Source: an uncultured Synergistales bacterium | GTDB taxonomy: Bacteria; Synergistota; Synergistia; Synergistales; Aminobacteriaceae | NCBI GenBank assembly: GCA_905234075.1 | Contig: CAJOGI010000006.1 | Span: 106,127 to 170,126 of the forward strand | Direction of reading: 5' to 3' | Length of the DNA: 64,000 nucleotides | In this document: one piece after another, positions 23,638 to 25,638 of the stretch | Layout: each line of letters opens with the position of its first letter | Position numbering within the stretch: position 1 is the stretch's first letter | Notes under the pieces: generated by a model | What the model saw: the letters and a program-made list of their open reading frames with translations, nothing else | Told to the model about the DNA's origin: nothing | Databases searched by the model: none | Program-made: the position numbers and the translations under genes

Positions 23638-23647
23638 TTTATTGAAT

Positions 23648-23680
23648 AGGGGGTGGGTTCCGCCCCCTAATTTTTTCTGA
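23648..23680 (+). terminator. Terminator after the macroglobulin gene
   Basis: AGGGGGTGGG and CGCCCCCT form a strong GC stem with loop TTC, followed by AATTTTTT. Confidence 0.85.
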
Positions 23681-23718
23681 CAAAATCTATGGAATTATAG
23701 TTAATAAACTTATTTCAT

Positions 23719-23826
23719 GATAAAACCCCTCCGTCTCCCTTCGTGAACCACCGCGTTGCACATGACACATTCAGTGTCATTGCCCCCTGACAAGGGGGAG
23801 GGGGCCGCTTGCGGCGAGGGTGTTAT
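23719..23826. mobile_element. MITE/REP-like palindromic element upstream of the MATE gene
   Basis: A segment of about 108 bp with imperfect terminal inverted repeats (ATAAAACCCCTCCG at the left, complement of ATAACACCCTCGCCG at the right). It contains three internal palindromes: ATGACAC-ATTCA-GTGTCAT, CCCCCT-GACA-AGGGGG and GCCGC-TT-GCGGC. It is GC-rich against AT-rich surroundings. No coding content. It sits just before the MATE ribosome-binding site. Confidence 0.55.
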
Positions 23827-23853
23827 AGTATTTACTATAGGAGTAAAAAATTT

Positions 23854-25638
23854 ATGAAGGATCTTTACGGAGAAAAAGCCAAGAACAAAATTCTTAGCAG
23901 ATTATTCACTAAAGCAGAAATATCATGGGGGCTTTCAGATATTTCTAAGTCAATCGGGCCGATGATTGATTTAATTTTTATAAGTCAATTTATCGGTATA
24001 AGCGGCGTAACGGTTATGGGCTATGTTGCTCCATTGATAATATTACTAAATTTTATAGGGAGCAGCGTATCTGATGGAGCGCGAGTCAATACTGCTCCGT
24101 TTTTTGGATCTGGAGATCTTGCCGAAGCCAATAGCATTTTTTCAAACGCCGTTATTTTGGGGGGAGGTATATCGTTTTCAACGGCTCTTTTTATTGCGGT
24201 ATTCTCCGGCGGTGTCTGCTTTGTGCTGGGAATAAGAGACCCTAATATTCTTATAATGACCCGCCAATATATTTACGGCTATATTATCGGCCTGCCGTTT
24301 TTTACGCTGGCAAGAATCCTTGCGCCTTATCTGGAACTCGAAGGACAGTACAAGCGAAGCGTTATAAGTTCTTTCATGATGACATTCATAGATATTGCCG
24401 CTGATGCTTTTGTAATTTTTGTTCTTCACGGCGGAATGTTTGAGCTTGGGCTGGCGACTTCGTTGGGGTATATAGTTTCTTTCTTGATTGAGGCTTCATT
24501 TTTCTTTAATAAAAAAAGTTCCTCAAGCTTCCGTCTTTCAGTAAAGAAAGTCGACTCTAAAATTTGTCTTAACATACTGAAACTTGGCTCACCTTCCGGA
24601 ATTGTCAAGGGGAGTGGTGCTGCAGGCGGTATGATAATAAATAACTTGCTTACATCTTATAACATGCCCTATCTTGTCGCGGCATATGGAGTCTTTGCAC
24701 AGATTACAGTTTATATTCGTGCGGCGTGGTTTTCTTCATCTACAAATCTTATTGTGTTTTCTGGAATTTTTATCGGTGAAGAGGACAAAAATTCGCTCAA
24801 AGAAGTACAGAAAATTGCCTTAGTTCATGCGTTAATTTCTTCAAATTCTATAGCAGTTTTGCTTTTCGTTTTTGCGGAGCCGATTGCAAAAATTTTCATG
24901 AAGTCCGGTGATTCTGCCGCATTAATAATGGCGGTTGAATGTATCCGGGTTTCGTGTTTTTCACTTCCGTTTCATGCGATTGTCTTTAACTTTGATAATT
25001 ACTTAATGCCTGTTAGGAGGATCCGCTTTGCTAATGTCTATTCATTTCTGACTCAATGCGGCAGCATTGTCCCAATTACCTTTTTGCTTTTGAATGTTAT
25101 TGGCTATCACGGTGCTTGGGTTTCAAAAGTTATTAACATGTTAATTCTGAGTCTTATCGCAATAATTTATATTTACAAGAACAAAGAGGCCGAAAATTTT
25201 CGAGATAAAATGCTTTTGCTTCCAAGAAGTTTCGGAATACTGCCTGAGAATGAAATTTCAGTTATAGCTCATTCAGAAAAAGAAATCGAAGATCTTTCAC
25301 GAGTAGCAATATCTTTCGCAATGGAACAGGGAGCCGATAAAAAACGCGCCCGGACTTTTGGTTTAATTACCGAAGAGCTCGGGATTTTTTTAGCTGAACA
25401 CGGCTTCAGGGACGGCAAGCCGCACACTATTAACGCCCGTCTCGTGGCAAAGAACGAAGATTTAATAATTCGTATGCGTGATGACTGCAAACCGTTAAAT
25501 CTTACGGAATATTATAAATTCATGAACACTCCCGAAGAAAAAGAAAAAGAGGCCGGACTTGCGATTATTATGAGCATGGCTAAAGAAGTTATTTACACGC
25601 CTACTTTCGGAGCGAATAATTTAATAATAAAAATTTAG
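23854..25638 (+). CDS. MATE-family exporter with C-terminal GHKL-ATPase-like domain
   Basis: A 594-residue protein. Residues 1 to about 460 form a 12-helix MATE drug/metabolite exporter (SIGPMIDLIFISQFIG near the start, internal duplication). The last 125 residues resemble an anti-sigma/RsbW-type HATPase: a degenerate N-box TEELGIFLAEHG (the Mg-binding Asn position is Ile), a D-box RMRDDCKPLN, and a final EAGLAIIMSMAKEVIY...GANNLIIKI block. ATG 23854 follows AGGAG by ten bases. Codon use is less GC-rich than the neighbours. The fused domain might bind nucleotide or a partner regulator; substrate unknown. Confidence 0.8.
   Translation: MKDLYGEKAKNKILSRLFTKAEISWGLSDISKSIGPMIDLIFISQFIGISGVTVMGYVAPLIILLNFIGSSVSDGARVNTAPFFGSGDLAEANSIFSNAVILGGGISFSTALFIAVFSGGVCFVLGIRDPNILIMTRQYIYGYIIGLPFFTLARILAPYLELEGQYKRSVISSFMMTFIDIAADAFVIFVLHGGMFELGLATSLGYIVSFLIEASFFFNKKSSSSFRLSVKKVDSKICLNILKLGSPSGIVKGSGAAGGMIINNLLTSYNMPYLVAAYGVFAQITVYIRAAWFSSSTNLIVFSGIFIGEEDKNSLKEVQKIALVHALISSNSIAVLLFVFAEPIAKIFMKSGDSAALIMAVECIRVSCFSLPFHAIVFNFDNYLMPVRRIRFANVYSFLTQCGSIVPITFLLLNVIGYHGAWVSKVINMLILSLIAIIYIYKNKEAENFRDKMLLLPRSFGILPENEISVIAHSEKEIEDLSRVAISFAMEQGADKKRARTFGLITEELGIFLAEHGFRDGKPHTINARLVAKNEDLIIRMRDDCKPLNLTEYYKFMNTPEEKEKEAGLAIIMSMAKEVIYTPTFGANNLIIKI

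Follow-up and report, generated by a model that had tools for sequence, protein, structure and literature searches.

A MATE exporter with an anti-sigma-factor-like C-terminal domain in Synergistota and its possible place in a partner switch

Partner switches are best known for the control of sigma factors. Can such a switch act on a transporter instead? The question is raised by a gene in a 64,000-nucleotide stretch of DNA from an uncultured Synergistales bacterium (the window). Its contig, C6, belongs to a genome of 1.84 Mb, and the closest named relatives of that genome are rumen Synergistaceae/Synergistales MAGs. A preliminary description, made from the letters of the sequence, had proposed that this gene encodes a MATE exporter fused to a cytoplasmic GHKL/anti-sigma-like module. 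We examined the fusion, its relatives and their gene neighbourhoods, and the features located are collected in Table 1.

The fusion gene and its two domains

The protein is a real fusion of a MATE exporter and a HATPase_c_2 tail, as borne out by profile matches, predicted fold and conservation. MatE (PF01554) matched the full protein in two stretches with 66.5 bits against a cut-off of 24.9 (Pfam). The acidic residue of TM1, Asp39, was invariant in all 30 fusions and aligned with the Asp of Bacillus halodurans BH2163 that is the equivalent of DinF-BH Asp40. Indeed, the whole transporter domain aligned with this DinF-branch MATE (PDB 5c6o/4lz6; profile E 5e-65), although the solved BH2163 chains have no C-terminal domain of the fusion type. 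The MATE part (window positions 23929-25200) also matched phrog_6241 (E 8.9e-38), a protein family from phage records that carries no functional assignment.

For the tail, we ran the HATPase_c_2 profile search that the preliminary description had proposed. The match spans residues 477-588 and is marginal: it reached 28.0 bits when the 152-residue tail was scanned alone, above the 27.4 cut-off, and 23.9 bits, below it, within the whole protein. Since 30 of the 30 family fusions matched MatE and 26 of them HATPase_c_2 at E<=0.001, the tail match in the window gene is not due to chance. The domain had been placed at 25240-25638; it is indeed C-terminal, but it begins about 20 bases earlier.

Table 1. 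Features of the fusion gene and of its own-genome paralogue. Positions are those of the window unless a contig is given.
Feature	Position	Strand	Basis
MATE-HATPase_c_2 fusion gene (594 aa), apparently a transcription unit by itself (start ATG at 23854, stop codon 25636-25638)	23854..25638	+	ORF and profile matches
Ribosome-binding-site-like GGAG, 10 bases 5' of the ATG	23840..23843	+	sequence
MATE transporter domain, residues about 30-450	23941..25203	+	
C-terminal Bergerat/HATPase_c_2 domain, 139 residues (456-594)	25219..25635	+	
N-box equivalent TEELGIFLAEHG, residues 506-517	25369..25404	+	family alignment
Glu508, putative general base, kept in the N-box equivalent	25375-25377	+	invariant, 30 fusions
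Phe512 at the Mg-binding Asn position	25387-25389	+	family alignment
G1 (D-box) equivalent RDDCKP; adenine-site Asp543 invariant, Gly position is Cys545	25477..25494	+	
G2 equivalent AGLA, Gly568-Leu-Ala570; GxG reduced to GxA	25552..25563	+	
Terminator-like hairpin in the gap between the upstream A2M gene and the fusion gene	23647..23669	+	consensus match only
Terminator-like hairpin immediately 3' of the stop codon	25642..25661	+	consensus match only
Own-genome paralogue, MATE-HATPase	C4:173383-175149	-	operon STAS, PP2C, MATE-HATPase, NRPS, STAS-AMP-binding

The intergenic segment just 5' of the gene (23718-23832) is repeated in its own genome, with one near-complete copy at 83% identity and four partial ones.

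Searching the PDB with the tail as a single sequence gave no match, so that its homology is visible only by profile or fold. Structure prediction of the full-length protein gave a pLDDT of 34. An AlphaFold2 model of the tail, built from three sequences (the tail and two relatives), reached a pLDDT of 65.6 and a pTM of 0.64 and has the topology beta-alpha-alpha-beta-beta-(alpha)-alpha-beta-beta. Its best PDB matches by Foldseek were all anti-sigma factors, namely SpoIIAB (1tid, E 4e-5), RsbW (6m37) and UsfX (8ih8), with VIA Z values of 10.6, 10.3 and 11.0, respectively, against about 6 for ordinary histidine kinases; SiaB was also among the fold matches. On this model, the tail has the Bergerat fold of the SpoIIAB/RsbW/UsfX anti-sigma type. 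A predicted structure lacking that fold had been named beforehand as grounds for abandoning the fusion reading, which therefore survives.

Partner-switch genes beside relatives of the fusion

No STAS, PP2C or RsbW gene was found in the window or on its contig. The neighbours of the fusion gene are a CheW-receiver (CheV-like) gene, alpha-2-macroglobulin, GH1 and PTS EIIBC. Hence the link between signalling and export put forward in the preliminary description has nothing of a switch behind it at the window locus itself, but is backed by the neighbourhoods of the own-genome paralogue and of relatives.

The paralogue lies in an operon with STAS, PP2C and NRPS genes (Table 1; G000:C4 164.9-177.1 kb, loci L087 and L011). 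The order STAS, PP2C, MATE-HATPase recurs in G138:C77 and G021:C8, and STAS, RsbW, MATE-HATPase is found in G078 and G133. Two further layouts involve enzymes: PP2C, STAS-condensation, part of an NRPS and MATE-HATPase in G140, and STAS followed, with other genes intervening, by MATE-HATPase, AMP-binding-HATPase and PP2C in G082:C5. Closer to the window gene, its relatives in G110, G152 and G155 stand directly 5' of operons encoding STAS, an LPG synthase-like protein, EamA, a HATPase-tailed membrane protein and PP2C. The G152 relative is intact and 55% identical over 587 residues, the G110 relative is 53-62% identical and is spread over two contigs that overlap exactly for 141 bases, and the G155 relative is partial, at a contig end. 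The same five-gene operon occurs with no MATE gene in G002, G021 and G056.

The proposed survey of tailed MATEs and nearby PP2C or STAS genes thus yielded about 40 fusions, some of them linked to such genes, with none near the window gene. A same-strand STAS or PP2C gene stands no more than 3 kb away from 7 of 40 fusions and from none of the 29 other MATEs listed (p=0.019); one of these 29 turned out to be a fusion too, and the p value is only a guide because the MATE lists are incomplete and relatedness deprives some loci of independence. Roughly four in five fusions have no STAS, PP2C or RsbW gene within 6 kb. The STAS proteins beside fusions retain a Ser (in SSAGL or ASAGL) aligned with the Ser of SpoIIAA/RsbV that is phosphorylated, the PP2Cs of the linked operons carry Cache and/or HAMP modules, and the genes of the own genome include one for a canonical RsbW (76.8 bits).

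We give about an even chance to a reading in which the tail has impaired catalysis and docks a STAS protein, giving a partner switch the means to gate export. The gene product is predicted to be a MATE-type (DinF-like) cation-coupled exporter, and its cytoplasmic C-terminus, RsbW/SpoIIAB-like with key Mg/ATP residues lost, would serve mainly for docking and gating. A membrane-sensor PP2C phosphatase of the SpoIIE type would remove the phosphate from a STAS protein, and a separate kinase, a canonical RsbW, would add it. The STAS protein would bind or release the tail to turn export on or off, so that a transporter would take the place of a sigma factor as the output of the switch. As the genes of relatives adjoin other switch parts, the cell probably controls the pump directly by the switch. 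The window copy would draw on switch proteins encoded elsewhere in its own genome, for example at C4:60-65 kb.

Control could also run from the pump to gene expression, as the preliminary description had suggested among other readings: the transport state of the pump would decide whether a STAS protein or a sigma factor is sequestered by the tail. The anatomy and the operon linkage are compatible with either direction and the tail has the fold of an anti-sigma factor. However, the PP2Cs of the operons carry Cache or HAMP modules, meaning that a sensor is already present, and tails are borne by an enzyme and an ABC ATPase as well, both of which resemble outputs; we regard this direction as unlikely.

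Similarly unlikely, in our view, is a docking scaffold in which HATPase-tailed transporters pair with STAS-tagged enzymes (AMP-binding, condensation and APH), keeping biosynthetic enzymes at the exporter, with phosphorylation setting the assembly. STAS-tagged enzymes of all three kinds do share operons with MATE-HATPase or other HATPase-tailed transporters, but no such enzyme adjoins the window gene, the AMP-binding enzyme of G082:C5 itself bears a HATPase tail, and many of the operons contain free STAS proteins.

Other proteins carry tails of the same type too: in the genus an EamA transporter, an adenylation enzyme and an SBP_bac_3-type ABC ATPase, and also PP2Cs. For the EamA and AMP-binding proteins, the tail was assigned with profiles built here, with weak or no Pfam support. 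The spread of HATPase tails and STAS tags over transporters and enzymes suggests a general plug-in use. Tentatively, and with somewhat less than an even chance, the STAS/HATPase pair may be a general plug-in control in this bacterial group, placed under PP2C sensor phosphatases and switching transport and biosynthesis at the protein level rather than via sigma factors. Its scope would comprise HATPase tails on MATE, EamA-type and ABC transporters and an adenylation enzyme, and STAS tags on adenylation, condensation and APH-type kinase enzymes.

Two loci with such proteins deserve separate description. An operon of the own genome at C4 60.1-70.8 kb (L089 6173-16787) encodes two STAS proteins, an EamA protein with a HATPase-like tail, a Cache-sensor PP2C, a canonical RsbW, a STAS-APH-type kinase, SBP_bac_3 proteins, an ABC permease and an ABC ATPase with a HATPase_c_2-like tail. 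At L101 4986-7001 (G082:C5), the AMP-binding enzyme that ends in a HATPase_c_2-like domain, for which the Pfam match is weak, adjoins the HATPase-tailed MATE.

ATP-site residues and selection on the tail

The motif strings named in the preliminary description, TEELGIFLAEHG, RMRDDCKPLN and EAGLAIIMSMAKEVIY, are all present in the order expected of a HATPase. Glu507, Glu508, Asp543 and Asn588 are invariant across the 30 fusions. At the Mg-binding Asn position, where an Ile had been reported, the residue is in fact Phe512; this column holds Asn in 23 of 30 fusions and Phe or Leu in the window clade, and the relatives in G110, G152 and G155 also have Phe. Judging by the alignment, it is the loss of Asn that sets the window clade apart, together with a few other fusions. 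The Gly-to-Cys change in the D-box had been read correctly, though Cys is shared by 22 of the 30 fusions and is thus a family trait and not a sign of decay. The second G2 Gly, a position absent from the preliminary description, is Arg or Lys in 23 of 30 fusions and Ala in the window gene. By its residues, the window tail belongs with HATPase_c_2 but is better not classed among active kinases of the RsbW type, as it keeps the N-box Glu but has neither the Asn nor the full set of G1 and G2 glycines of RsbW/SpoIIAB-type kinases.

These residues also bear on a further reading, in which the tail is an active Ser/Thr kinase for the STAS protein, anchored to the membrane by the pump. The invariance of Glu508 and Asp543 and the Asn kept by most of the family speak for it, and the alignment makes an active tail kinase likely in some paralogues. 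For the window gene we see only a slim chance, given the Phe or Leu of its clade, the Cys at G1, the GxA at G2 and the existence of separate canonical RsbW genes.

Selection on the tail was assessed by dN/dS. Comparison of the window gene with six orthologues gave values of 0.07-0.24 for the tail and 0.28-0.40 for the pump core; a seventh orthologue was saturated. In pairs without the window gene, the tail was lower than or about equal to the pump core except between G120 and the broken G002 copy, a pair of very low divergence (0.76). Towards several orthologues, the tail is 88-94% identical where the pump core is only about 77% identical. The tail is therefore constrained, and its decay is rejected on these dN/dS values; the term "degenerate" in the preliminary description fits the Mg/ATP motifs but misleads for the domain as a whole. 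The reading frame of the gene is broken in relatives G043, G106, G134 and G002, so that, assembly errors aside, the gene is dispensable in some lineages. That the tail is a functionless evolutionary remnant, as its lost ATP-site residues and these broken frames could suggest, is very improbable in the face of its low dN/dS and high identity.

Distribution and relation to known systems

The approximately 40 fusions found here are within Synergistota, and the arrangement may well exist outside this phylum. Within the genus, 22 of 43 genomes contain a tail match at E<=1e-10. In a quick tree of the MATE part, 15 tailless MATEs fall on one side of a branch with an SH-aLRT of 95, and the window gene lies within a fully supported fusion group, with some long branches that leave the details unsure. 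Single-protein searches of viral collections returned no relatives. The sole plasmid match spanning the tail region (H1, Vescimonas) was rejected, since its annotation shows a MATE gene of usual length that stops short of the tail.

The fusion places known parts in a new arrangement. The tail shares fold and motif order with the anti-sigma Ser kinases SpoIIAB, RsbW and UsfX (HATPase_c_2, GHKL superfamily), keeps their general-base Glu and adenine Asp, and has STAS and PP2C partners in the operons of relatives. Unlike them, it is fused to an exporter, its window clade is without the Mg-binding Asn and the G1/G2 glycines, and no sigma factor was noted beside the window fusion gene. Another related system is SiaA-SiaB-SiaC-SiaD of Pseudomonas aeruginosa, a switch of PP2C, HATPase kinase and antagonist whose output is an enzyme, a diguanylate cyclase, and not a sigma factor (PMC7647112, PMC8457831); there the kinase is a separate protein, whereas here the tail is fused. 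Leahy et al. (2010) described mru0066-0071 of Methanobrevibacter ruminantium, with NRPS, MatE, serine phosphatases and an anti-sigma factor antagonist, as a cluster that senses the environment, regulates the expression of the NRPS and provides for export (PMC2812497). The operon of the own-genome paralogue has a comparable gene set; the passages on the cluster in that paper do not mention a MatE-HATPase fusion, and our literature search found no description of one.

If the HATPase half on a MATE exporter works in this way, the transporter would be a direct phospho-switch target, offering a testable route for the post-translational gating of drug or natural-product export by bacteria. Operons with NRPS, STAS, PP2C and a tailed MATE mark where an exported product could be sought. 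The NRPS of the paralogue operon (2429 aa) has two condensation, two adenylation and two carrier domains and terminates in a reductase-type NAD_binding_4 domain, which may mean that an aldehyde or alcohol is released as its product.

Other tail arrangements were seen among the fusions. A broken remnant of a third own-genome MATE-HATPase tail, split between frames, lies at L112 4960-5524 (G000:C14), and three tandem tail copies, the last two partial (residues 37-139), lie 3' of a MATE fusion at L111 11001-12034 (G155:C120). In one fusion clade, a downstream operon (L058 2905-5811) encodes an APH-type kinase, a TIM-barrel protein and a PAS-adenylate/guanylate cyclase; the Pfam identification of these products is for L058 alone, and the layout is similar in L060, L062 and L074-L076.
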